IMG/VR virus record: IMGVR_UViG_3300020169_000077
Span: 1-29,368 of that record
Reading direction: 5' to 3' (one strand)
DNA: 29,368 nucleotides
Origin: a virus
Below, piece by piece: positions 2-26,216 of the stretch. Each line of letters starts with the position of its first letter. Within the stretch, counting starts at the first letter, position 1. The translations under genes and the position numbers were made by a program. The notes below the pieces were generated by a model that saw nothing but the letters and a program-made list of their open reading frames with translations, ran no database searches and had not been told where the DNA came from.

Positions 2-1732
2 GATGCTATCCATGACCTAAAGGTTATGCCATCTATGCGGTGCATGATGACAGCAGGTACTGCCTTAGCTAAGGATAACGTAGCTGGATTTAATTGTAGT
101 TACTTACACATTGATTCACCACGTAGCTTTGATGAGTTGATGTACGTGTTGATGTGCGGTACAGGTGTAGGGTTCAGTGTCGAGCGTAACTTCATCAACA
201 AACTACCAATAGTATCAGAAGAGTTCCACCCTACAGACACTGTGATTGTTGTTGCTGACAGTAAGATTGGTTGGGCCTCAGCATTCCGTGAGCTTATTGC
301 TATGCTCTATGCTGGTAAGATACCTAAGTGGGATGTGAGTAAGGTACGAAGTGCTGGCGAACGCCTTAAGACATTTGGTGGTCGTGCCTCTGGGCCTGAG
401 CCTCTAGTAGATCTCTTTAACTTCTGTGTGCAACTCTTCCAGAAAGCTAAGGGCCGTAAGCTATCAAGCCTAGAGTGCCATGATGTGTGCTGTAAGGTTG
501 CTGACATCGTAGTTGTAGGTGGTGTCCGTAGGTCTGCACTGATCAGCCTCTCTAATCTATCAGATCAACGTATGGCTAAGGCTAAGTCAGGACAGTGGTG
601 GTTGAATGAAGGTCAACGTAGACTCGCTAACAACAGCGTGGCGTACACTGAGAAACCAGACTTTGAAGCCTTCCTTAATGAGATGAAGAACATGTACGAG
701 TCTAAAGCTGGTGAGCGTGGTATCTTCAGCCGTGTTGCAGCCCAGAAGATCGCTGCTCGTAACGGACGGAGAGATGCTACGTATGAGTTCGGAACTAACC
801 CGTGCTCTGAAATCATCCTACGTAGTAACCAGTTCTGTAACCTCTCCGAGGTAGTGGTACGTGCAGAGGATACCCTTGAAGATCTCAAAGAGAAGATCGA
901 GATGGCAGCTATCATCGGTACCCTACAGGCTACACTAACTGACTTCCGTTACCTACGTAAGTCTTGGAAAACTAATACAGAAGAGGAAGCGTTACTTGGT
1001 GTGAGCCTTACAGGTATCATGGATCACCCAGTGCTGAATGCAAGGGGTGGTGTTAATGGTGAACTACAAGACTGGCTTGAGACAATGCGAGATGCTGCTG
1101 TTAAAGTTAATGAGAAGTGGGCTAAGAAGCTTGGCATTAATCAGGCTGCTGCTATTACAGCTGTCAAGCCAAGTGGTACTGTATCTCAGCTTGTCGATTC
1201 TGCTTCTGGCATTCATCCTCGCTTCTCTAAGCATTACATTCGTAGTGTACGTTCAGACAAGAAAGACCCACTGGCAATCTTCATGCAAGAAAAAGGATTC
1301 CCAGTAGAGCAAGACGTTCATAGTGAATCTTCACTGGTGTTCAGCTTCCCTGTCAAGGCACCTGAAGCTAGTGTGACTGTCAAGGAGGTGGGTGCAATGG
1401 CTCAGCTTGAGCAATGGAAAGCCTATCAGAACTTCTATTGTGAACACAAGCCAAGCATCACCGTCTACTACACTGATGATGAGTTCTTAGAAGTATGCCA
1501 GTGGATCTGGGACAACTTCGATATGTGCTCAGGGATCTCTCTGCTGCCCGTTAGCGATCATGTATACCAACAGGCACCCTATCAGGATATAACCCCTGAG
1601 AAGTACGCTGAGTTGCTTGAGGCTATGCCTACGGGTATTGACTGGGCTGACTTAGGTGACTTTGAAATGGAAGATAACACTACAGGTTCTCAAGAGCTAG
1701 CCTGTGTTGGTGGTGCGTGTGAGATCGTCTAG
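2..1732 (+). CDS. nrdJ: Class II (B12-dependent) ribonucleotide reductase, 5' end cut by the window
   Basis: It converts ribonucleotides to deoxyribonucleotides with adenosylcobalamin as radical source, feeding phage DNA synthesis. The reading frame is open to the left edge, so the first ATG visible (26) is not the start; about 576 codons are present and the N-terminus is missing. Visible landmarks fit the monomeric RTPR family: AGFNCSY (redox Cys near nt 95), CGTGVGF, NPCSEI followed by QFCNLSE (thiyl Cys, catalytic Glu and second redox Cys, with the spacing of C408/E410/C419 in the Lactobacillus enzyme), and the C-terminal shuttle pair CVGGAC just before the stop. The distance from the first redox Cys to the thiyl Cys is about 50 residues shorter than in the Lactobacillus enzyme, so this is a compact form. 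It heads the nucleotide-metabolism block that includes MazG and ThyX. Confidence 0.95.
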   Translation, partial: DAIHDLKVMPSMRCMMTAGTALAKDNVAGFNCSYLHIDSPRSFDELMYVLMCGTGVGFSVERNFINKLPIVSEEFHPTDTVIVVADSKIGWASAFRELIAMLYAGKIPKWDVSKVRSAGERLKTFGGRASGPEPLVDLFNFCVQLFQKAKGRKLSSLECHDVCCKVADIVVVGGVRRSALISLSNLSDQRMAKAKSGQWWLNEGQRRLANNSVAYTEKPDFEAFLNEMKNMYESKAGERGIFSRVAAQKIAARNGRRDATYEFGTNPCSEIILRSNQFCNLSEVVVRAEDTLEDLKEKIEMAAIIGTLQATLTDFRYLRKSWKTNTEEEALLGVSLTGIMDHPVLNARGGVNGELQDWLETMRDAAVKVNEKWAKKLGINQAAAITAVKPSGTVSQLVDSASGIHPRFSKHYIRSVRSDKKDPLAIFMQEKGFPVEQDVHSESSLVFSFPVKAPEASVTVKEVGAMAQLEQWKAYQNFYCEHKPSITVYYTDDEFLEVCQWIWDNFDMCSGISLLPVSDHVYQQAPYQDITPEKYAELLEAMPTGIDWADLGDFEMEDNTTGSQELACVGGACEIV

Positions 1733-1733
1733 T

Positions 1734-1892
1734 ATGGTTGATGATATGAGGGACATTGTCCACGGCCCCGTAATGAAAGCAATGACTGACGTTGTTGAGG
1801 GTAGGCTAGCACTATCCCAAGCCTGTCAGAAGCACAGAGTAACTAAAGAAGAGATACTAGAGTTGGTCTCTAGGTTCTTACACGAAGAGTAA
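1734..1892 (+). CDS. Small HTH-like hypothetical protein (52 aa)
   Basis: It begins one base after the reductase stop, so translation is probably coupled to the upstream gene; no good Shine-Dalgarno is visible. An in-frame ATG at 1704 inside the reductase gene would add ten residues, and one at 1746 would remove four. The segment GRLALSQACQKHRVTKEEIL looks like a short helix-turn-helix (helix, turn around HRVTK, second helix), which would suit a small DNA-binding regulator, but this is inference from pattern only. No family is recognised. Confidence 0.55.
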   Translation: MVDDMRDIVHGPVMKAMTDVVEGRLALSQACQKHRVTKEEILELVSRFLHEE

Positions 1893-1944
1893 ACCAACGT
1901 AGTAGTTTAAGAAAAGCCTGATATAAGGCGTATAGGTACCCAAA

Positions 1945-1970
1945 CAACCGTTTAAGTAAACTATAGTGAC
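1945..1970 (+). promoter_or_regulatory. Candidate phage RNA polymerase promoter
   Basis: The 123-base gap before the MazG-like gene contains TTTAAGTAAACTATAGTGAC. This resembles promoters of the T7/SP6 polymerase class, which end in CACTATAG with initiation at the G; the SP6 promoter starts ATTTAGGTGACACTATAG. It lies directly before a strong hairpin and a new gene, a sensible place for a middle promoter. It is a single-site resemblance with no second convincing copy in the window, so the call is tentative. Confidence 0.35.
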
Positions 1971-1993
1971 CCCATAGGTATTCCCTGTGGGGT
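1969..1993 (+). other. Strong RNA hairpin in the leader of the MazG-like gene
   Basis: ACCCCATAGG and CCTGTGGGGT pair over 10 base pairs (one T-G pair) around a 5-base loop. No U-run follows, so it is not a classical intrinsic terminator. It sits 22 bases before the MazG start and right after the promoter-like CTATAG. It could be an RNase III processing site as used between T7 genes, a 5' stabiliser, or a weak terminator. The next gene has the ribosome-binding site AAGGA at about 2004. Confidence 0.6.
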
Positions 1994-2015
1994 TACAACA
2001 TTTAAGGAATTGATT

Positions 2016-2333
2016 ATGACAACAGTAGTTAACTGTACACTTGATGAACTAGAACATAAAGTACTCCTCTGGGGTTACGAGAAGGGTATCCTCCCTAATG
2101 GACAAGCATCTAAGCAGTTCAGTAAGACACTAGAAGAAGTCTCTGAGTTATGCTCAGCCATCGAGAGTTTAGATGATGAAGAAGTTATAGATGCTATTGG
2201 TGATATCGTAGTGACACTTATAATGCAAGCAAACATCTGGGGTGTAGACCTTAAGGCTTGCTTAGGTTCAGCGTACGATGTGATAGCTAAGCGTACAGGT
2301 ACAATGGTTAACGGTGTATTCGTTAAGGACTGA
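2016..2333 (+). CDS. MazG-like nucleotide pyrophosphohydrolase (105 aa)
   Basis: MazG-type all-alpha NTP pyrophosphatases hydrolyse (d)NTPs or alarmones with Mg2+ bound by an E-x-x-E pair and a distal D-x-x-x-D. Here LEEVSEL (E40, E41, E44) and DAIGDIV (D59, D63) supply that pattern within a protein of the usual single-domain length. The ATG at 2016 is preferred over a TTG two codons upstream because AAGGA lies about 8 bases before it. Phage MazG proteins are proposed to keep host nucleotide or ppGpp pools favourable during infection; the substrate cannot be told from sequence. It is followed by a short spacer with a small hairpin and a 45-aa gene. Confidence 0.8.
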   Translation: MTTVVNCTLDELEHKVLLWGYEKGILPNGQASKQFSKTLEEVSELCSAIESLDDEEVIDAIGDIVVTLIMQANIWGVDLKACLGSAYDVIAKRTGTMVNGVFVKD

Positions 2334-2375
2334 GGGTTGAGCCACACTACGTGTGTCTCTTTATAGGATAATGTT

Positions 2376-2513
2376 ATGAAAGGTACTAAAGATATTGTTG
2401 AAGAGCCTACAATCACTAAGTCAGATGCTAAGGCTATACGACTAGCTAAAAGTGATAAGCGTAGGAAGAAGCGTGTATCTAAAGAAGAACTCTACGAAAA
2501 GAAGTGGAAATAG
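2376..2513 (+). CDS. Small basic hypothetical protein (45 aa)
   Basis: The frame runs from ATG 2376 to TAG 2511-2513, with AGGAT about 7 bases before the start and the primase-helicase ATG two bases after the stop. The product begins MKGTKDIVEE and ends in a Lys/Arg-rich tail (KRRKKRVSKEELYEKKWK), suggesting nucleic-acid binding or a partner of the next gene. No family is recognised. The tight packing and good ribosome-binding site support a real gene, though it is shorter than most gene finders accept. Confidence 0.6.
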   Translation: MKGTKDIVEEPTITKSDAKAIRLAKSDKRRKKRVSKEELYEKKWK

Positions 2514-2515
2514 AA

Positions 2516-4153
2516 ATGAAGAAACAATACGAACCCTCTGATTTAATTACTAAGCACCTACCTTGTGACAAGTGTGGGTCATCTGATGCTAAGTCTGTAC
2601 GAGCTGATGGCTCTGCGTTCTGCTTCAGTTGCAATACAAACTTTAAAAGTGTAGACACTAACCATATTGAGGACATCCAAGAGATGACTTACCAACAAGA
2701 AACAATCGAAGACGTAGCAACGTATCAATCCTATGCACTGACATCGAGAGGTATCAGTAAAGAAGTTGTTGATCACTTCAACGTAAAGATGTCAGTAGAC
2801 ATTGATGGAAGACCCGAAGCACACTACTACCCTTTCACTAAGCGGGGCATGACTGTAGCCTACAAGGTACGCAAGCTACCCAAAAGCTTCAGCACTCTAG
2901 GTGAGTTCAAAGGGGTGGAGTTGTTCGGACAATCCATGGCTGGTTCAGGGAAGACCCTAGTGATTACAGAGGGCGAGTTAGATGCTATGGCTGTAGCCCA
3001 AGCTAACTTTGATAGGTACAAGAAGTTCTACAGTGTTGTGTCCCTACCTAATGGTGCTCAGTCAATTCAATCTATCCTTCACAACCGTGAGTGGGTTCGT
3101 AAGTTCGAGACTGTCGTGTTGATGTTTGACATGGATGATCCCGGTCAAGAGGCTGCTGCTCAAGCTGCCCGTATGATTGGCATGGGTAAGGTACGTATCG
3201 CTAAGCTCCGAGAGAAAGACCCCTGTGATGAGCTAAAAGAACATGGCTCTGGTGCTATCCTAGAGGCAATGTGGGGTGCACAACCATGGTCTCCAGCTGG
3301 CATCCTCTCAGGTGAGAAGGTCTGGGAGAAGTTCATGGAGCGCAAGAGTGTAGTCAGTGTACCCTATCCAGAGTGCCTCTCTGGTTTGACAGGTAAGCTG
3401 GATGGTATGCGTCACGGTGAGATCACACTATTCACCAGCGGCACTGGCTCAGGTAAGTCTACTGTGATCAAAGAGATTGTACTGGACTTGCTTAAGAAGA
3501 CTGATGGTAAGATTGGCTTGATCTCCCTAGAGGAATCTGTTGGAGAGACCGCTGAGAAGTTCATTGGTATGTCCCTAGAGCGACCACTGACTGGCACCAC
3601 CCCCCTGACAGAAGACGAGATGCGTCATGGGTTCGACACAGTGTTCAAGGATGAGCGTCTTGTTCTCCTAGATCACCAAGGTTCTGTATCCGATGCGTCC
3701 CTTGTGGATAAGATTGAGTACATGGCATTGATGGGTTGTAAGTATCTTGTACTAGACCACATTACTATTGCTGTGTCCGAGGGTACTGATGGTCTGTCTG
3801 GCAATGAGGCTATTGACAAGTTGATGTCTGACTTACTCAAGTTAGTCAAGCAGCACAACGTCTGGCTGGGGTTGATCAGCCACCTACGTAAGTCTCAGGG
3901 TAAGTCCTTTGAAGAGGGATTGCTACCATCAATTGATGACATCAAAGGCTCTGGTAGTATCAAGCAGATCAGCTTTGACATCATTGCATTCGCTAGGAAC
4001 CTAGTGGCTGAGGAGGACTACGAACGTAACACAATAAAACTCAGGGTACTTAAGTCACGCTTCACAGGTAACACTGGTGACGCAGGTACCGCAGTCTACG
4101 ACCCCAGCACAACTCGCTTAACCGCAGGAGTAGCGGGGTTTGATATCATGTAA
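2516..4153 (+). CDS. DNA primase-helicase, T7 gp4 type
   Basis: This is a bifunctional replisome motor that makes RNA primers and unwinds DNA as a ring hexamer. Starting at ATG 2516 gives 545 aa and puts the zinc-ribbon cysteines at 17, 20, 36 and 39, exactly as in T7 gp4; a GTG at 2504 overlaps the previous gene and is less likely. The TOPRIM primase domain shows TEGELDA (about residue 151) and FDMDDPG (about 204). The RecA-like helicase has Walker A SGTGSGKST (about 308-316), SLEES with the catalytic Glu (about 339), Walker B YLVLDH (about 414), the sensor ISHLRK, and KSRFTGNTG carrying the arginine finger near 515. All key residues appear intact. The next gene is the RNA polymerase, 15 bases on. 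Confidence 0.95.
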   Translation: MKKQYEPSDLITKHLPCDKCGSSDAKSVRADGSAFCFSCNTNFKSVDTNHIEDIQEMTYQQETIEDVATYQSYALTSRGISKEVVDHFNVKMSVDIDGRPEAHYYPFTKRGMTVAYKVRKLPKSFSTLGEFKGVELFGQSMAGSGKTLVITEGELDAMAVAQANFDRYKKFYSVVSLPNGAQSIQSILHNREWVRKFETVVLMFDMDDPGQEAAAQAARMIGMGKVRIAKLREKDPCDELKEHGSGAILEAMWGAQPWSPAGILSGEKVWEKFMERKSVVSVPYPECLSGLTGKLDGMRHGEITLFTSGTGSGKSTVIKEIVLDLLKKTDGKIGLISLEESVGETAEKFIGMSLERPLTGTTPLTEDEMRHGFDTVFKDERLVLLDHQGSVSDASLVDKIEYMALMGCKYLVLDHITIAVSEGTDGLSGNEAIDKLMSDLLKLVKQHNVWLGLISHLRKSQGKSFEEGLLPSIDDIKGSGSIKQISFDIIAFARNLVAEEDYERNTIKLRVLKSRFTGNTGDAGTAVYDPSTTRLTAGVAGFDIM

Positions 4154-4168
4154 ACAATAGGTATTGTC

Positions 4169-6253
4169 ATGAATTGGTTAGAGAATATAGAGTTATACCT
4201 ACGGTTAAAGATAACCGGCAACCCAACGAGAGCACCCCATGGTGTTACCTTGTTAAACAAACACCCGGAGTCTCACCAGAGGCTCCAAGAGTTTGCATTA
4301 ATAGCGCACACAGTTCTTACAACTCAAGCTAAAACTGTTTCTAATGTTACACAATGTAAACTAACAGTAACAAGTATCGCCATAGGTAAACGCATCTTGA
4401 CCTCTCTGACTAACTCAAGGAGGCATGATTGGAAAGATGAAGTGCGCCTTGGGGACTTGTTCGTAGAAGCCTTCTTCCGATTAGGTTACGTGGACATAAT
4501 TAAACCAACCTTTAAATCAGTTAAGCCTGTCGAGATAGTATTCCTCGATACCTTCCCAACAGAACTACCAGAGGCTATCGCTAAGATGTCACTACATGGT
4601 GTCTGGAGTGAACGACCGAGGGCTATTAACAGAGCAGAGCAGATCATACAGTTCAAGAGGGACAGTCCTAAGTTTGTCAATGGTGTTGTCAAGAGATGGG
4701 ATGAGGTACTCGATGGCCCCTTTAAAGAACTGTTAGCAACCAAGGCTATCAAAGCAGTGAACAAGTTGCAGCAAGTACCTTGGGTGATCAACAAGGACGT
4801 ACTAGAGGCTGTCAAGGCTAACCCCTACAAGTTCTTCAAGGAAGATGATAAGTCCCCTGAGAATAGGTCGAAGAAGATAGACTATGTGTACACAATAACC
4901 AAGGCAACAGCACTATCAGAGGTTGATCAGTTCTACTATGCACTGGATGTTGACTATCGTGGTCGAGTCTACTATGTGGAGAGCTATATGAACTTCCAAG
5001 GGTCAGACCTCGCCAGAGGCCTCCTAAGCTTCTCTAAGGCACAGTTGGTCACACCCAGTGGGTTACGTTGGATGAAGATACATTGTGCCTCCTCGTACAA
5101 CGAGAGCTATCCTAAGGGGTCTATACCATCTTGGTGTACCTCAGACTACAAAACACACCTAGATTCTGAGGGATTAGATGATATCTCGGTAGACAAGATG
5201 ACGTTAAGGGATAGAGAGCTGTGGGTTGAGCACAATTACGCCAAGGTATACACGACTGCAATAAAGAAGACACTCCATGACTGTGAGAAACCTGTAGCGT
5301 TCCTAGCAGTTTGTATTGAACTACTAAAGTATAAGGAGAATGATGGTCATTATTACTCTAATCTGCCTATACCAGTGGATGGTAGCAACAATGGGTGGCA
5401 ACACCTAGGTGCTATCTCCAAGGATGAGCAGACAGCAGGTCTTGTTGGACTAGTACCTGTAGATATCCAGAATGATTTCTATGTACAGACAGCTAAGATG
5501 TTGATATCTATAACAAAAGATGAGACCCGCAGGGACATACTAGAGAGTATGCCTATGAAGAAGATAAGGAAAGGTATCAGTAAGAGGGGAAGTATGACAA
5601 GGGCTTACTCTGCTGGTGCACAGAAGATCGCTGAGAACATGTATCAAGATTGTAGTAAGTATGATTACTGTGATGAGTATGGGATAACAGAAGGTGTCTG
5701 TAAGGGTCTTGCAAGAGACCTCGTTAAGGCTATCCAGCTGGTCTGTCCCGGCCCCCTTCAGACCATGAAGTACTTACAACAACTAGCTAACGATAGGCTA
5801 GACCAGGGCTATGGTTACATGACATGGACATCCCCCTCGGGGTTCCCTGTTATCTACACTTGCAACCATCAACGGTCTGAGAAGCAACGGGGTACCATCA
5901 ATGGTCTTGGACAGATCAATCATGTAGCCAAGATAGATACTAATGTGTCTGACCGTAGAGGTTTCATGTGTGGTATCTCTCCCAACTTCATTCACTCACA
6001 AGATGCAGCTCACATGAGCCTAGTCATACACCAGTTCGAGGGTGACTTCGGAGCTGTCCATGATAGCTTCAGCACTCACGCATCAGATGTAGAAGAACTA
6101 CTTACAATAACCAAGGGTGTCTTCATAGATATGTACAATGAGGATAACTATTTCAATAACATTCAAGCTAGAATAGAAGCCACGGCTACTCAGCCAGAGC
6201 TAGGTAGCTTGAACATAAAAGATGTAGAGAAGTCAGACTACTTCTTTGCATAA
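4169..6253 (+). CDS. Single-subunit (T7-type) DNA-dependent RNA polymerase, compact
   Basis: It transcribes phage genes from its own promoters without host sigma factors. Catalytic motifs with T7 equivalents: VDYRGRVYYV (R266 for R425), VDGSNNGWQH (motif A, D404 for D537), KRGSMTRAYS (motif B, K472 and Y480 for K631 and Y639), and HDSF (motif C, H631-D632 for H811-D812); PNFIHSQD also matches. At 694 aa it is much shorter than T7 RNAP (883), mainly in the N-terminal part. It is close to the summed length of the two subunits of N4 RNA polymerase II (about 670), but here in one chain. The residue after the motif B Tyr is Ser instead of the usual Gly. It probably serves middle or late transcription; a second polymerase is encoded at 7290-10733. 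Confidence 0.95.
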   Translation: MNWLENIELYLRLKITGNPTRAPHGVTLLNKHPESHQRLQEFALIAHTVLTTQAKTVSNVTQCKLTVTSIAIGKRILTSLTNSRRHDWKDEVRLGDLFVEAFFRLGYVDIIKPTFKSVKPVEIVFLDTFPTELPEAIAKMSLHGVWSERPRAINRAEQIIQFKRDSPKFVNGVVKRWDEVLDGPFKELLATKAIKAVNKLQQVPWVINKDVLEAVKANPYKFFKEDDKSPENRSKKIDYVYTITKATALSEVDQFYYALDVDYRGRVYYVESYMNFQGSDLARGLLSFSKAQLVTPSGLRWMKIHCASSYNESYPKGSIPSWCTSDYKTHLDSEGLDDISVDKMTLRDRELWVEHNYAKVYTTAIKKTLHDCEKPVAFLAVCIELLKYKENDGHYYSNLPIPVDGSNNGWQHLGAISKDEQTAGLVGLVPVDIQNDFYVQTAKMLISITKDETRRDILESMPMKKIRKGISKRGSMTRAYSAGAQKIAENMYQDCSKYDYCDEYGITEGVCKGLARDLVKAIQLVCPGPLQTMKYLQQLANDRLDQGYGYMTWTSPSGFPVIYTCNHQRSEKQRGTINGLGQINHVAKIDTNVSDRRGFMCGISPNFIHSQDAAHMSLVIHQFEGDFGAVHDSFSTHASDVEELLTITKGVFIDMYNEDNYFNNIQARIEATATQPELGSLNIKDVEKSDYFFA

Positions 6254-6263
6254 GGAGAATTAC

Positions 6264-6530
6264 ATGGACAAGAATACAAACTTTAACGTACTAGCACTAC
6301 AAGGTGCGGACATTGATGACATGGAATACATTGAGCAGTTCAACCTAGATCCCAAGTTAGCGTACACTCCGGGTATCAACGATGCGATGCTCGACACCAT
6401 TCGTCAGGAGAACCTAGCGTTCTTCAGGTCAGAGGGTGACACTGAGAAGGAAGCACTCAGTAAAGCTAATGAGTACCACAGCACAGCCAAGGCAAGTATC
6501 AAACGTCTACTAAAGAACAAAGTCCACTAA
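6264..6530 (+). CDS. Hypothetical protein (88 aa)
   Basis: ATG 6264 is preceded by AAGGAG with 6-base spacing, a stronger start than the in-frame TTG at 6246 that overlaps the polymerase gene. The product begins MDKNTNFNVL, is acidic in its first half, and has a helical C-terminus rich in Lys (ASIKRLLKNKVH). No family or motif is recognised. Its position between RNA polymerase and ThyX, with 10- to 11-base gaps on each side, shows it is co-transcribed with both. Confidence 0.7.
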   Translation: MDKNTNFNVLALQGADIDDMEYIEQFNLDPKLAYTPGINDAMLDTIRQENLAFFRSEGDTEKEALSKANEYHSTAKASIKRLLKNKVH

Positions 6531-6541
6531 GGGAACCCTCT

Positions 6542-7195
6542 ATGAGTACTGTTAAGTTAGTAGCACTATCTAAACCATCAGTTATCACAGACTGTCACAC
6601 TGCAAGCGACCTTGTTGCATACACAGCCCGTGTCAGTAACCCAGCTAATCAGAACAACCTAGGTACCGCACCTAAGTTAATTCAGTACTTGATAAGAGAG
6701 AATCATTGGTCTCCCTTTGAGATGGTACATATAACAATGGAGATCAACACCACTAGGGACATTGGTAGGCAGATACTACGTCACCGATCCTTTGCCTTTC
6801 AAGAGTTCAGCCAACGGTATGCTGTGAGTGAGACCTTTGAGAAACGTGATGGTAGACTACAGGATACAGTCAACAGACAAAACTCAATTGAATCAGATGA
6901 CAAGATGTTGTCTGAGTCTTGGAACATGCTACAAATGGAAGTTATTAGTAAAGCTAAGGAAGCTTATAAGTGGGCATTGGATAGGGGAATTGCCAAGGAA
7001 CAGGCGAGGGCAGTACTACCGGAAGGTAATACCCAGACCACCATGTACATGGCAGGGTCATTGAGATCTTGGATACACTACTGTGAACTACGTATGGCTA
7101 ACGGTACTCAGAAGGAGCACATGGATGTGGCTAAGCAGTGCTGGAGTATCATAGGGTGTCACTTCCCTGATGTTGTTAAGGCTTTAGAGAAATAA
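6542..7195 (+). CDS. thyX: Flavin-dependent thymidylate synthase ThyX
   Basis: It makes dTMP from dUMP using methylene-tetrahydrofolate, FAD and NADPH. The ThyX signature RHRSFAFQEFSQR lies at residues 80-92 (RHR-x7-S pattern), with EQARAVLPEG further on (about 153-162), also typical of the family. The length (217 aa) matches bacterial and phage ThyX. The ribosome-binding site AAGGGA lies about 9 bases upstream. Together with the class II reductase it lets the phage supply dTTP independently of host ThyA. It is the last gene of the rightward operon and is followed immediately by a strong terminator. Confidence 0.95.
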   Translation: MSTVKLVALSKPSVITDCHTASDLVAYTARVSNPANQNNLGTAPKLIQYLIRENHWSPFEMVHITMEINTTRDIGRQILRHRSFAFQEFSQRYAVSETFEKRDGRLQDTVNRQNSIESDDKMLSESWNMLQMEVISKAKEAYKWALDRGIAKEQARAVLPEGNTQTTMYMAGSLRSWIHYCELRMANGTQKEHMDVAKQCWSIIGCHFPDVVKALEK

Positions 7196-7289: not shown

Positions 7290-10200
7290 TTAATGAGCGA
7301 AGTATTGATACACCTCACCCTTGTACTTCTTTAGAAGACTTCGTATCTTAGCTTGACCAGCCTTAGCATCTGCCTTGATCTTGACAAGCAACTGCCTTGT
7401 GTCTAAGTACTGTTCCAACAACTTGTTAAAGTGCTGCACCTGTTTAGGTGTTGCTGTCTTTGATCCGAATGTAAAGCCAACATCAGTAGCCATCTTCTTT
7501 TTTATAGCCATAGCCATCTCTGCGGCTTTCTGGTTGGTGCCTTCAATCGTACTGCCTCTGCCGGGATCTGTAGCTTCTGCTAACATATAAGCAAGGTTCT
7601 GTGGGAAGTCAAAAGCCTCCTGAGTTCTCTTAGTTTCCGTCAAGTATCCCATCATCTGGAACTCTTCATTAACTTCAAGAGACACCTGTGCATTCGGTGC
7701 CATCTTAGAAAGCTTATCCTTCAAGGCAACTTCTGCTCTCTGTCTAGCACCTTCATACTCCCCGAACACATCCCAATCCATAGTAGCTTTCATCCAGTTC
7801 TTATTAGTTTCCCTAACAATAACATCGAAACCATTAGCATCCATCTTAAACGCATCGTAGATTGGAAAGGCGTATGGGTTACCATTGCTAGAATTATTTA
7901 GACTAGCCATGGAGAAGCCAGTGTAAGTGGTAGCAACAACAGCAGCGTCTGTTGACTGTGCTGGTGTCACTACAGATGTGTTAGCTGCTTGCATACCTGT
8001 CCTGTTCTCAGGGCCAGATGGCCCCTCCACTACTTGAGTAGAGGCAGCAGTCCTACGTTCTGGACTGTAAGATTGTGCCTTAACTTGCCTACGCACACCC
8101 GCCTTGTTGGTCATCGAGTAAGGTATAGGTTCATTAGGTCTTGTAACAAAGCCACCCATCTCTAAGTCCATTCCAGCTGGGCCTACTATTGTTAATGGTA
8201 AGTCCGACAGTGCACTCAAGTACGCCACTGCTTTCATAGCAGCTCTGGCACGAATAGAATCCTCAGACACTACCTCTTTCAAACCAGAAACATAAGGCTC
8301 TAGTAACACAGTACCTATCTTACTAGGGTCAGATTCCTGCCTCATCAAAGCTTCATACGCATCCTTAAAACCAACAAGGTTCCTCTCCTTAAGTGCAGCA
8401 GCCCTATTAGTTGCATCTTCAATCGCTTCTGCATCTAGCGCCTCTTGATATATCATCCCTGCAAACTCATTAATAGTACCCTTGATACTTTGCAGTGCAC
8501 GACCATAACCAAAGGTCATTGTGGTGTACTTGTTAAGATTCTTCTCAGAGAATAACCTACTTGCCACTGCTGTAAGGGCTGCTGGTGCATCCGAATACAC
8601 ATCATAGTCTAAACCTACAGTGTTTATGTTACCTAGCAAAGTCTCCCTAAGCTTGTCACGTATGTCCCCAACATCTAACAGGTTCTTGTTACCAACTCTT
8701 AGGACACCTGTAAGGAATGCCAACGCAACATCACCAAGCATCATACCCATAGCTGCTAGTCCGTTAGTCTTACCATCAATGTAAGCATTGAACTGTGTTA
8801 CGTGAGGCTTCTTATTTATAATAACACTTTGATAGTACTTAGCAAAGTCCATAAGACCATCCATGTACAGCAAACCATCATCACCTGCCTTATCTATAGC
8901 ACTAAGAAGCTCTGCATCCCTATCAGGATCAAGGGCAAGCTCGTTGAACTGTGGGAACGCTGGGTCTCTAAGGCCCGTCTTATCCTGAACAGCTTGATGT
9001 ATTGAATCAGACTGTGCATTAGACATAGTAGCATCGAGAACTTCCTGTAATCTCTGACCCCACTTCCGCAACTGAGGAGTTGCTAAAGCCAATGCCTTAT
9101 CACGTTCAACTGGCAACATCATATCAGCATCGTTTACTAGGTGCATTGCATACATCTGCCTCAAGTTAACTTCCTGTCGAGAGTTAGGCTTTACAGTAAC
9201 ATAAGCAGGGTTAGCCAATGCAAACCTGACTAGCTTAGAACTTGTAGGATCTAATCCAGTCTGCTCTACAAAGATTCTACCAGTGCCTTGCATAGCCCAT
9301 GTCAAATAGTTAACACCCTTCCTATCTTTAGCAAGAGCTTGATAGTACTGTGCAATACTGTTGCGAAGCTCACCCATTGCTTGTTGTGCGCTGTAAGGTT
9401 TATCCACAGTAGCTGCCGCCTCCTTAGCATTAAAAGCAGCCATCTTCTTTTTACCAAACCCCAAGATGTTAGCATAAACCTCCTGCTGTGGAGTAAGCTT
9501 TTGCCCCGGAGTCTGAGCTGCTGCAAGTGTTGGTAGTATAATACTTGTTATCAACTTAAGTCTTGCAGGTACAACAGCGTGTGGGATCTGGCTTAGGTTG
9601 AACATAGCCTCCTTGATTGTTCTATCACCTCTTATCTTCTTAACAGCCTTTATGAAAAACCTAGATATAGGTGACTTACCCTGTCCCTCTGGCAGTGGTG
9701 GTGTCTTGTAGGGTTCCACTGGGGGTCTGAAGAAGATGCTCTTCCTGAGCTTCTTACCAGCCGCTAGTTGGGTGATGCCCAGAGGTGTCAGGTGGAACTG
9801 AACTTCACCTGTCTTACCTGTAGGTGAAACTCGTCTCATTAACTCGGCACCCGGAGCACCTTTGTTGACGTTGTAGTACATCTCTAAGAACGCATCACCA
9901 AGTACAGTTGCTTGTTCATCAGAGATATCTGTAATACTATCTGGCCCACCCGTAAGGAGTTTCCACTCCCTGTTGATGTTCCTGCCAAGCTCCTTGTTCA
10001 TAGAGCTTTTAACAAAGGGTTTCTCAAGAGCACCCATCTGTGTTTGCTCTCCAGTGTCAGAGAACATACGTGTCGCTGCATTCTCTACAGTGTCAACACC
10101 TTCCAGCTTATTCAACATGGTATCTTCAGCAACAGCTGTTGCTACTGCAATGTAGTCAGGGTTATAACCTGTACCCCACTCAGGGATGCTTGCATCAAAT

Positions 10201-10733
10201 GCCTTGTGGTTATTAGCAATCACATCTGTAAGAACACTGAACCCCTTGTCGCCTTGGACACGGTTGCCCTCCATTGTTTGCTTTTCCATACCAAACTTAT
10301 AACCACCATCACGAACAGCGTTGACGGCAGCTTTACCCCTGAGCCTAAACCCTTGATCAAGCTCCCCATCTCCTTCAGTGGCTTGCGTGATTTCCCAGTT
10401 GCCGCTTTCTTGAAAGAGCCGATTAGTGATATCACCGTATAGTTCGTTCTGCCTGTCCACTTCTTCTTCAACTGATAGTATCTTTTGCTCTTCATCTAGT
10501 TGACCTAAGAGACCAGCTTCTATTGCTTGTTGATCAGCCACAGGGTCTGAAACAGGTGCACCCTCAATTGCTTGAGGGGCATCTGCTGTTACGCTTTGAA
10601 TGGGTGCATCAGATGGTTGTAGTATATTAGACTCTATAGTCTCTGAGGGTGTGTCTAGCAGTGTACTGAGATCCATCTCTTGTTGTTGATTTGCAACCTG
10701 ACCCGGTTTTGTTGTTATGTTTACTCTAGCCAT
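7290..10733 (-). CDS. Virion-type single-subunit RNA polymerase (N4 vRNAP-like), 1147 aa
   Basis: Seen: all hallmark residues of T7/N4-type polymerases in the right order: QGTGRIFV (R486, like T7 R425), YIDGKTNG (motif A, D653 like D537), KYTTMTFGYG (motif B, K735, M739, T740, Y743 with exact T7 spacing to K631/Y639), and IYDAF (motif C, D960 like D812; Tyr replaces the usual His). Known: phage N4 packages gp50, a divergent polymerase of this superfamily that is injected with DNA and transcribes early genes. Inferred: this late-operon protein, encoded after the giant ejection protein, plays that role. It has about 380 residues before the polymerase core, including a disordered Pro/Gln-rich start, against a far longer N4 protein of about 3500 aa. 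Start ATG 10733 has AGGAG nine bases upstream. Residues 20-30 repeat the start of the neighbouring giant protein. No signal peptide is apparent. Confidence 0.8.
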   Translation of the reverse strand: MARVNITTKPGQVANQQQEMDLSTLLDTPSETIESNILQPSDAPIQSVTADAPQAIEGAPVSDPVADQQAIEAGLLGQLDEEQKILSVEEEVDRQNELYGDITNRLFQESGNWEITQATEGDGELDQGFRLRGKAAVNAVRDGGYKFGMEKQTMEGNRVQGDKGFSVLTDVIANNHKAFDASIPEWGTGYNPDYIAVATAVAEDTMLNKLEGVDTVENAATRMFSDTGEQTQMGALEKPFVKSSMNKELGRNINREWKLLTGGPDSITDISDEQATVLGDAFLEMYYNVNKGAPGAELMRRVSPTGKTGEVQFHLTPLGITQLAAGKKLRKSIFFRPPVEPYKTPPLPEGQGKSPISRFFIKAVKKIRGDRTIKEAMFNLSQIPHAVVPARLKLITSIILPTLAAAQTPGQKLTPQQEVYANILGFGKKKMAAFNAKEAAATVDKPYSAQQAMGELRNSIAQYYQALAKDRKGVNYLTWAMQGTGRIFVEQTGLDPTSSKLVRFALANPAYVTVKPNSRQEVNLRQMYAMHLVNDADMMLPVERDKALALATPQLRKWGQRLQEVLDATMSNAQSDSIHQAVQDKTGLRDPAFPQFNELALDPDRDAELLSAIDKAGDDGLLYMDGLMDFAKYYQSVIINKKPHVTQFNAYIDGKTNGLAAMGMMLGDVALAFLTGVLRVGNKNLLDVGDIRDKLRETLLGNINTVGLDYDVYSDAPAALTAVASRLFSEKNLNKYTTMTFGYGRALQSIKGTINEFAGMIYQEALDAEAIEDATNRAAALKERNLVGFKDAYEALMRQESDPSKIGTVLLEPYVSGLKEVVSEDSIRARAAMKAVAYLSALSDLPLTIVGPAGMDLEMGGFVTRPNEPIPYSMTNKAGVRRQVKAQSYSPERRTAASTQVVEGPSGPENRTGMQAANTSVVTPAQSTDAAVVATTYTGFSMASLNNSSNGNPYAFPIYDAFKMDANGFDVIVRETNKNWMKATMDWDVFGEYEGARQRAEVALKDKLSKMAPNAQVSLEVNEEFQMMGYLTETKRTQEAFDFPQNLAYMLAEATDPGRGSTIEGTNQKAAEMAMAIKKKMATDVGFTFGSKTATPKQVQHFNKLLEQYLDTRQLLVKIKADAKAGQAKIRSLLKKYKGEVYQYFAH

Positions 10734-23974: not shown

Positions 23975-26142
23975 TATCTACGACCTCCTTTCTTGACCTC
24001 TAATTGAATACCAGAAAGCTTCCAGTTAGTGTCTACATTGTTCTCATCTGTAAACCTGAAGCTAATCAATCTACCATTAATTCTGGTATCTGTTTTATAA
24101 TCTGAACCAATAGAAAACAATACGTTCTCACTGATGCCCTCTGCACCATCATTAGATGATAGTGGGTTTGAAGCTAAAGATGCACCGGGTGCATTAGTAA
24201 CTCTGAACCGAAGCCTGAGTTGTACGTCATCTTCTGAATCCTTGCTTGCCCAAAGAGCAATAGAGTTTAATGATTCAACATCAAACTCAGGAGTCATTGG
24301 AGCTTCTAGTCTTTCTATATACGACTCATAGTTATTATCATTAATGTCAGTATACTTGTTGTTAAAGTCAGCACCATAGATATCGCCATTAAACACAAAC
24401 ACTGGCCTTGATACACTTGCATCTACATCAGCAGATAAAGACCCACCAGCTAAGATAGTCTTAGTGTGTCCTGATACGCCATGGGTTGCTGGTGTGATTA
24501 CCCTACGAGACCATACATTGGAATCGTAGTTGTAGATAAGCACTTCATTAGAGCTACCTGTAGATGTTAAGTTTGGAAAGCATATCCACAACTCATCATC
24601 AGCTGTGTTATTAATTATAAAAGCTTTACTTGAGTACGTTGGGTGTACATTGTCAAAGTAGTAATCCCTAACCCTGTTGTTAGACAACGACTTCACACTT
24701 GCAGGGTGTCCAGAGAACTGATAGATATCATCAGACCCAACAATAACATGTGTGCCTCGGTGCTCGTGCACTAAGTCTAAGCCTGATGCACCATGGGTAG
24801 AGCTTATGATAGCTGCTGTGTAAGGTATAGATGGATTACCTGTCTTGCTTAACGCATGTATAGAGTTGTTAGTATACACATAAAGATTACCTTGCATAGG
24901 TGCAAGCTCTTGTACGATACCTGTAGTAGACAGTGTAAACTCTTCCGCTGTAGATACACCTGCACTGTACGGGTTCCAGTTGTGAGGGATAGCACCAGCT
25001 GCTGCAACATCAGATATCCTAACGACACCCGGTTGATTACGAACTGCTGTACCACTGCTCATTATGGTATACCGTGTACTAGAGTACGTACCAGATGGTA
25101 GTGTGTTTACAGTAACTTGAGTGTCACTGTTAATGTTATTAATTGTATAGATACCTTTAGCAAATGAAGGTGAGTTTATCTTAATCACATCACCAACTGA
25201 AAAACCATGCTTGTCTGTAAAGGCAAGGGTGCTGTTAATGGTGTTGACACTAGCAACTGGAGGTGAGTTAATCTCAACCAAGTTACCTGCAACTAATGTA
25301 TCACCCCACGCCCGTATAACACCTGCACGTACCTGTACAGTTGCAAGAGATCTTATGGTTACATAAACTGTATCCCCACTCTGCAAGAACTCTGTAAAGG
25401 CAGGACTACCACCAGCTGCTGTTGCAACAGTCACGATATGTGTGTCTGTTACTGGGTCTAAAGATGAGGTTGCTTGATCTACTGTAGTGACGCTTGTTAA
25501 GTTGACACTAAACTTCTTACTGTTGTCAGTACCACTATAAACATTCACCACCACTTCTTCTAAGTCAAAGTTAACTTTCTTACCCAGATCAAACTCAGCT
25601 ATGTGTAAGTCAGAATCAAAGATGTCTTTGAAGGCCACTTCATTTGTATAGTATGAATCCCAACCCGGTAGCTCGAAGGCATCTAGGAGGGTCATATTGG
25701 TATTGCCAGTTGCATCCAAGATGTACCAAGGACGAGCAAGACCATTGTTAATTATAATAGCATATCCACCTTGGTAGACTGCATGTTGCCAATCACCACC
25801 TGCTGGTACATCAAGCTCAAGGTCTCTTGTGTTACCATCACTAGCACGTAGAAGGTAGACCCTATCGGTGGTGTTGTCTGTTGTTACTATTACGTAGTAG
25901 CCATTAGTTGGTGTGAGGTTGGGGTTAGCCCACCATGCAACGTGTATCATGTTCCCAACTATAGTGTCCCCTGAGAAAGAACTAAACAGTTTAGCTTCTC
26001 CGGGTATCTTTTCTACACATCCATTATTAAACCGTACATTGAGTACATCACTAAAAGCGTTGGTTGGTAATGCAATGGCAGGTGTGTCTTTGATCAATCC
26101 AACAGTGTTGAGTCCTGTGATAGGGACAACTTGCTCTGTCAT
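23974..26142 (-). CDS. Tail nozzle/hub protein, beta-propeller type (722 aa)
   Basis: The start (GLIKDTPAIALPTNAFSDVL, then NVRFNNGCVEKIPGE) resembles tail tube/nozzle proteins of the T7 gp12 and P22 gp10 type, which open by placing defined contact sites on the tail. Propeller-like blades follow: VYTNNSIHALSKTG, HRGTHVIVGSDDIYQFSG and EVLIYNYDSNVWSRRVITP. An inserted region of about 200 residues (roughly 190-370) looks like extra beta domains. GGAGGT lies seven bases before the ATG. It leads directly into the fibre gene, as expected for the component to which fibres attach. The fold assignment is by pattern and could be tested by structure prediction. Confidence 0.65.
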   Translation of the reverse strand: MTEQVVPITGLNTVGLIKDTPAIALPTNAFSDVLNVRFNNGCVEKIPGEAKLFSSFSGDTIVGNMIHVAWWANPNLTPTNGYYVIVTTDNTTDRVYLLRASDGNTRDLELDVPAGGDWQHAVYQGGYAIIINNGLARPWYILDATGNTNMTLLDAFELPGWDSYYTNEVAFKDIFDSDLHIAEFDLGKKVNFDLEEVVVNVYSGTDNSKKFSVNLTSVTTVDQATSSLDPVTDTHIVTVATAAGGSPAFTEFLQSGDTVYVTIRSLATVQVRAGVIRAWGDTLVAGNLVEINSPPVASVNTINSTLAFTDKHGFSVGDVIKINSPSFAKGIYTINNINSDTQVTVNTLPSGTYSSTRYTIMSSGTAVRNQPGVVRISDVAAAGAIPHNWNPYSAGVSTAEEFTLSTTGIVQELAPMQGNLYVYTNNSIHALSKTGNPSIPYTAAIISSTHGASGLDLVHEHRGTHVIVGSDDIYQFSGHPASVKSLSNNRVRDYYFDNVHPTYSSKAFIINNTADDELWICFPNLTSTGSSNEVLIYNYDSNVWSRRVITPATHGVSGHTKTILAGGSLSADVDASVSRPVFVFNGDIYGADFNNKYTDINDNNYESYIERLEAPMTPEFDVESLNSIALWASKDSEDDVQLRLRFRVTNAPGASLASNPLSSNDGAEGISENVLFSIGSDYKTDTRINGRLISFRFTDENNVDTNWKLSGIQLEVKKGGRR

Positions 26143-26216
26143 TGGATACCTCCGTTATTACTTATATTCATTAGGGTTACCCCGGTTTCGTCCTATAGGG
26201 ACTAGCGAACTTACAT
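26143..26216 (-). promoter_or_regulatory. Longest gap in the late operon, with a CCTATAGG element
   Basis: This 74-base spacer lies between the lysis block and the nozzle gene. Read on the - strand it contains GCTAGTCCCTATAGGACGAA, whose CCTATAGG core (26192-26199) resembles the initiation region of T7-class promoters and the CTATAG at 1961. GTCC-CTATA-GGAC could also fold into a 4-bp hairpin. It may be an internal late promoter ahead of the tail and ejection genes; the evidence is only this resemblance and the unusual spacing. Confidence 0.25.

Follow-up and report, generated by a model that had tools for sequence, protein, structure and literature searches.

The virion RNA polymerase (vRNAP) of phage N4, gp50, is a cysteine-free protein of 3500 amino acids (aa). 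Inspection of the N4 genome shows that its gene is the last of the late block, adjoins the ejection genes gp51 and gp52 and is convergent with the replication block; a second N4 RNA polymerase (RNAP) is split between gp15 and gp16. The promoters of the N4 vRNAP are template-strand hairpins with a 3-base loop (PMC4496689). The vRNAP is treated as a giant-protein hallmark of the Schitoviridae (PMC7650795), and in reference genomes of this family it measures 2,842-3,820 aa (PMC10654107). An IMG/VR survey with N4-vRNAP profiles dropped proteins of less than 2,500 aa, so compact forms were filtered out of it (PMC10654107), and a literature search that left subscription journals mostly outside turned up no description of a compact virion RNAP of the N4 type. 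Virion RNAPs followed by a second, non-virion phage RNAP, an arrangement considered below, exist in phiKZ-type phages and P23-45, but those enzymes are relatives of cellular RNAPs and are not single-subunit (PMC10770324, PMC7598289). Here we describe a candidate compact form in a viral stretch of 29,368 nucleotides (IMG/VR record IMGVR_UViG_3300020169_000077, hereafter the window). The last gene of its late block (7290..10733, minus strand) starts with ATG and encodes 1147 aa without a single cysteine. An original prediction made from the sequence had seen in this product a second, late-expressed RNAP that is probably packaged, citing as precedent N4 gp50, about three times longer, and the split second polymerase of N4. 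Both statements on N4 are accurate and the open reading frame (ORF) is real, its strand, left unstated at the time, being the minus one. Judged from its sequence and predicted structure, the product is a single-subunit RNAP related by descent to the N4 vRNAP, of which it retains only the catalytic module.

The five catalytic residues of T7/N4-type polymerases had been located at R486 (TxxGR motif, codon 9276..9278), D653 (motif A, DGKTNG, 8775..8777), K735 and Y743 (motif B, 8529..8531 and 8505..8507) and D960 (motif C, YD, 7854..7856), all on the minus strand, and all are found at these positions. Scans of viral contigs yielded more than 65 homologous loci, 41 of which were aligned, with identity down to 22%; the five residues are kept in 41/41 members, as is most of the DGKTNG of motif A, its DGKT being invariant. 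Because these positions do not vary even at 22% identity, catalysis appears to be under selection, and the polymerase is probably active. Motif B reads K-YTT-M-T-FG-Y-G, which fits the claimed K-x3-M-T-x2-Y-G spacing. The Tyr-Asp of motif C, pointed out in the original prediction as a replacement of His-Asp, is present as described and found across the family (H-D occurs once), but it is not unusual: since N4-type enzymes carry Phe-Asp or His-Asp there (F-D or H-D in the Schitoviridae set, F-D in N4 itself), it is no warning sign. A scan of genome contigs returned no relatives of the polymerase. Two of the homologues (L054:9284-13384, 1366 aa, and L079:9218-13144, 1308 aa) have a domain inserted between motifs B and C, at about residues 910-1065, that matches phrog_1017 (E-value 1.2e-8).

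The kinship with the N4 enzyme emerges from comparisons at the family level. The PHROG RNA polymerase family is matched by 28 of the 41 homologues (best E-value 3e-7), and such weak matches are expected of a real distant member, because the N4 mini-vRNAP itself only reaches 5e-6 against the same family. Profile-profile comparison, conclusive only with diverse alignments on both sides (shallow profiles were inconclusive), relates the family to 21 Schitoviridae vRNAP modules with a probability of 96.5% (E-value 8e-10, 718 columns), against 18.8% (1e-3) for T7-type RNAPs and 0.4% for the neighbouring ejection proteins. This alignment maps R486, D653, K735, Y743 and D960 one-to-one onto N4 R424, D559 (in DGVTNG), K670, Y678 and D951 (in FD), and the likeness of motif A is visible by eye between N4 (ADGVTNGPINAM) and the homologue P0015 (NAYIDGKTNGPASNAM). 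The AlphaFold (AF2) model of the 1147-aa polymerase has a predicted template modelling score of 0.78, with most of the catalytic half above 85 in the predicted local distance difference test (pLDDT), and presents the palm and fingers fold of single-subunit RNAPs. Its best 50 matches among PDB structures consist exclusively of single-subunit RNAPs, of T7, mitochondrial or N4 type (best E-value 2.9e-14), and the N4 mini-vRNAP promoter complex 3C3L is among the matches (1e-13). Invariant catalytic residues, profile homology to the N4 vRNAP and predicted fold thus agree on a second polymerase. The first one exists too: it is a non-virion T7-type RNAP of 694 aa with 11 cysteines, encoded in the replication block (4169..6253, plus strand; Pfam RNA_pol, 3.8e-58; phrog_414, 1.5e-103). 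The 1147-aa protein has the single-subunit fold and catalytic residues in common with this enzyme and with T7 RNAP, but the latter are cytoplasmic and cysteine-rich, lie among replication genes and show a much weaker profile similarity to it than the N4 vRNAP does. With the catalytic module of gp50 it shares the residues, the homology over those 718 columns, the fold and the absence of cysteine, and there is a high likelihood that it would work like the N4 vRNAP. It differs by its length, by the lack of large N- and C-terminal domains and by YD in place of FD/HD. No giant three-domain layout was found, full-length relatives measuring about 1100-1370 aa; by size and domain layout, the protein falls outside the giant gp50 family.

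Candidate hairpin promoters of the N4 type had been missed by the original prediction. The window and 12 relatives (the G-numbered genomes and Roseobacter phage CRP-7) were scanned for C-GNA-G triloop hairpins with a stem of at least 5 bp, a search that recovered all three N4 promoters, P1-P3, as a control. This class was fixed after repeated GAA hairpins had been noticed in G004 and G007, and the window clade represents an independent test. In the window, a putative vRNAP promoter, GAGaCACAC-GTA-GTGTGgCTC, lies on the minus (template) strand at 2339..2359, 155 bp ahead of the primase-helicase gene (start at 2504), and would direct rightward transcription; its DNA fold has -6.8 kcal/mol and a z of -4.8. 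The form GAGaCACAC-GNA-GTGTGgCTC is found in three copies in G011 and two in G010. Near-copies exist as well: in one, loop ATA goes together with a compensatory change in the stem, and another has loop AAA. A pattern scan found the window-clade hairpin in 12 viral contigs; in the five of them that could be checked for clade markers, it sits on the strand that serves as template for early genes of the window type. Among these five, IMGVR_UViG_3300020182_000174 (L161/L163) matches the left end of the window with 99.8% identity in 1,577 compared bases and continues beyond it to the left; it probably carries the early half of the same phage, and holds two further copies of the hairpin. G007 has four copies of GTTGCGAAGCAAC, a 13-mer identical to the N4 P1 core, and G004 three hairpin copies of TCCCGAAGGGA. 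In total, C-GNA-G hairpins are present in the window, G004, G007, G009, G010 and G011; over the 12 genomes, the early genes have 23 of them on their template strand, as opposed to 5 on the opposite one (p 9e-4), and 7 are intergenic where 0.63 would be expected, a count that leaves out copies located in noncoding DNA onto which spurious ORFs extend. As stem-6 hairpins with 3-nt loops, taken together, show no excess around the early start (4 observed against 5.7 expected), the claim is confined to the C-GNA-G class. A further hairpin at window position 846 was set aside as a promoter, for it is coding sequence within the ribonucleotide reductase gene, conserved in G011.

These hairpins might have another function, as repressor sites, RNA processing sites or terminators, with early genes transcribed by the host RNAP. 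Other hairpin kinds do occur in these phages, and no C-GNA-G hairpin with a stem of at least 5 bp was found in the early region of 7/12 relatives (G001-G003, G005, G006, G008 and CRP-7). Nevertheless, we consider this explanation rather unlikely, given that triloop class and strand polarity are those of all three N4 early promoters, including the P1 13-mer, that the central loop base varies while the G and A stay, and that the stem of a near-copy is kept by compensatory change; terminators are moreover contradicted by the lack of a T-run. Among the other hairpins, the early start of G006 (L102-L104) displays four TGTTT-ATG-AAACA hairpins with long conserved flanks, which could be the vRNAP promoters of that phage with a different loop. 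The early block of G001, G002 and G006 contains, once per genome, an AGGTTCT-NNN-AGAACCT hairpin with conserved flanks and a freely varying loop. Template-strand triloop hairpins of the N4 type before early genes, in the window and part of its relatives, support the phage-carried early transcription that the original prediction envisaged.

Packaging was likewise proposed in that prediction, and it appears probable because of the N4-like gene position and the depletion of cysteine. As in N4, the polymerase gene closes the late block, next to ejection genes and convergent with the early/replication block. It adjoins genes for two cysteine-free proteins, one of 1324 aa of ejection type (P0002; 10743..14717, minus strand; phrog_6958, 5.7e-28, and tblastn) and another of 766 aa that is ejection/tape-measure-like (P0003; 14736..17036, minus strand; phrog_25241, 8.6e-9). 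The order of T7-type RNAP, small gene and convergent vRNAP with two large genes is retained in CRP-7 and in each of the eight relatives of 55-60 kb that were examined, which supports the assignment of this late gene to an ejection block. Fifty of 54 full-length polymerase homologues have no cysteine at all and the family averages 0.06 per 1000 aa, close to the relatives of the 1324-aa (0.06) and 766-aa (0.39) neighbours, against 14.3 for the T7-type RNAPs that these phages also encode. The known ejected proteins N4 gp50/51/52 and T7 gp15/16 have none, and the non-virion N4 RNAPII has 15-22 per 1000, a comparison to be read knowing that some capsid, scaffold and fibre proteins lack cysteine too. 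A putative vRNAP has been proposed in StenR_269 and the Zobellviridae on similar grounds, namely protein size, helicity and missing cysteine (PMC10747016). The proposed protein is likewise a large, cysteine-free, alpha-helical component of the virion, encoded at a comparable place in the genome, but catalytic-residue or profile evidence was not found in the portion of its description available to us. Alternatively, the protein could be an active N4-related RNAP that is made late and stays in the cytoplasm, for instance for late transcription or replication priming. The late operon position, taken alone, would fit such an enzyme equally well. Yet the contrast in cysteine content with the cytoplasmic RNAP of the same phages follows the pattern of ejected proteins, and the fixed place beside cysteine-free ejection proteins and the early-sense orientation of the hairpins also make this scenario improbable.

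A related question is whether a packaged protein of this descent still polymerizes. The isolated podovirus Roseobacter phage CRP-7 has a protein, gp33 (L006:21543-25250), that is annotated as hypothetical; the CRP-7 paper names only ORF30 as RNAP (PMC6918029). In position, size and absence of cysteine, gp33 is like the 1147-aa polymerase, and the Asp of motifs A and C and the Tyr-Gly of motif B align (blastp E-value 0.003), but it has Arg for the motif B Lys and HD in motif C, it is too divergent for a significant profile match (15%), and the early region of its genome shows no C-GNA-G hairpins. Since no reliable AF2 model was obtained for the CRP-7 group (pLDDT 35), the group is not claimed as an active polymerase; gp33 and the distant syntenic group L015-L023 could be an altered or inactive virion polymerase. 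The Arg of this group, and the precedent of T7 gp16, a purely ejection protein of similar size, would be in line with a protein of vRNAP ancestry that lost catalysis and only aids DNA entry. For the family described here this is very improbable, as all 41 homologues keep the catalytic residues and DGKT, and candidate cognate promoters persist. A mere coincidence of motifs in an unrelated structural protein, suggested by the fact that the 1147-aa sequence as a single query has no significant match in Pfam, PHROGs, PDB sequences or phage genomes (tblastn), was rejected in view of the profile homology, the fold match (E-value below 1e-12) and the invariant residues.

We therefore come back to the reading of a stand-alone mini N4-type virion RNAP, packaged, ejected with the DNA and transcribing early genes from hairpins before the T7-type RNAP takes over, which we find likely. 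The polymerase would be made late, packaged with its two cysteine-free neighbours and delivered into the cell together with the phage DNA. There it would recognize the template-strand C-GNA-G hairpins before early and replication genes, which would be transcribed without the host RNAP. Several observations weigh against this reading. Equivalents of the N- and C-terminal domains of the N4 vRNAP are absent. The N4 promoter-contact residues K849/K850/D901/R904 are not evidently conserved, as they align with M859/G860/T899/V902 in a region where the alignment is weak. Foldseek does not rank the N4 vRNAP above T7 RNAP for the AF2 model, although the sequence profile does favor N4. To these can be added the seven relatives without C-GNA-G hairpins, so that this type of promoter may not extend to the whole family.

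One of the early products would be the 694-aa T7-type RNAP, which would next read linear promoters in the early/middle and late blocks. A T7-type linear promoter-like motif, CGCTAGTCCCTATAGGAC, is located at 26187..26210 on the minus (late) strand, within the gap that precedes the late gene with its start at 26142. The motif occurs on both strands, as CGCTAGTCCCTATAGGAC in the window clade and as TAAGTTCCTTATAG or ATATACCCCTTATAG in other relatives, and is a natural candidate for the promoter of the T7-type enzyme. A cascade is thereby suggested, with the virion RNAP at its start and the T7-type RNAP doing the rest. Taken further, the whole genome may be transcribed without host RNAP by two single-subunit polymerases in a family-level group of abundant marine podoviruses, a proposal for which we see the case as evenly balanced. 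The labor would then be divided between the compact virion enzyme acting early at hairpins and the T7-type enzyme acting in the middle and late phases at linear promoters on both strands. N4 returns to the host RNAP for its late genes. If true, the two-polymerase scheme would be unlike that of N4 and would represent a single-subunit counterpart of the phiKZ one.

In the window, plus-strand replication genes (26-7195) face the minus-strand late block and comprise a ribonucleotide reductase of class II (B12-dependent), the type seen in Cobavirus-type marine phages (26-1732, plus strand), the primase-helicase, first gene past the hairpin (2504..4153, plus strand; phrog_239, 1e-153), the T7-type RNAP and ThyX. 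The best reading of the phage group is one of 55-60 kb marine podoviruses outside the Schitoviridae, from which it differs in the two features compared, genome size (68-78 kb in Schitoviridae) and an unsplit second RNAP. The C-terminal part of the 1324-aa protein is related to the virion structural protein gp51 of the LUZ24-like phage tf. Its residues from about 36 to 140 look by eye like a TNase (staphylococcal-nuclease) domain (LFDADTVEGSDGERYRIQGFDAPE...GRKTGRL), on which Pfam is silent at E-values up to 1. It begins with MDLSKLLDTPS, similar to MDLSTLLDTPS at residues 20-30 of the polymerase; this shared peptide, possibly a packaging signal or a trace of recombination, is not retained in the 94% relative L001.

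With a stand-alone form of ~1150 aa in a different group of phages, catalysis and promoter recognition are uncoupled from the giant domains on either side, and the origin of virion RNAPs and their packaging signal become testable. The absence of cysteine emerges as a simple sequence marker for ejected proteins, and compact hairpin-specific polymerases acting on single-stranded templates could serve as tools. For ocean phages, the prediction is an early transcription that is insensitive to rifampicin. An N4-type polymerase encoded beside DNA-injection proteins, together with hairpin start signals before early genes, suggests that a large group of these phages enters the cell equipped with a transcription machine of its own.

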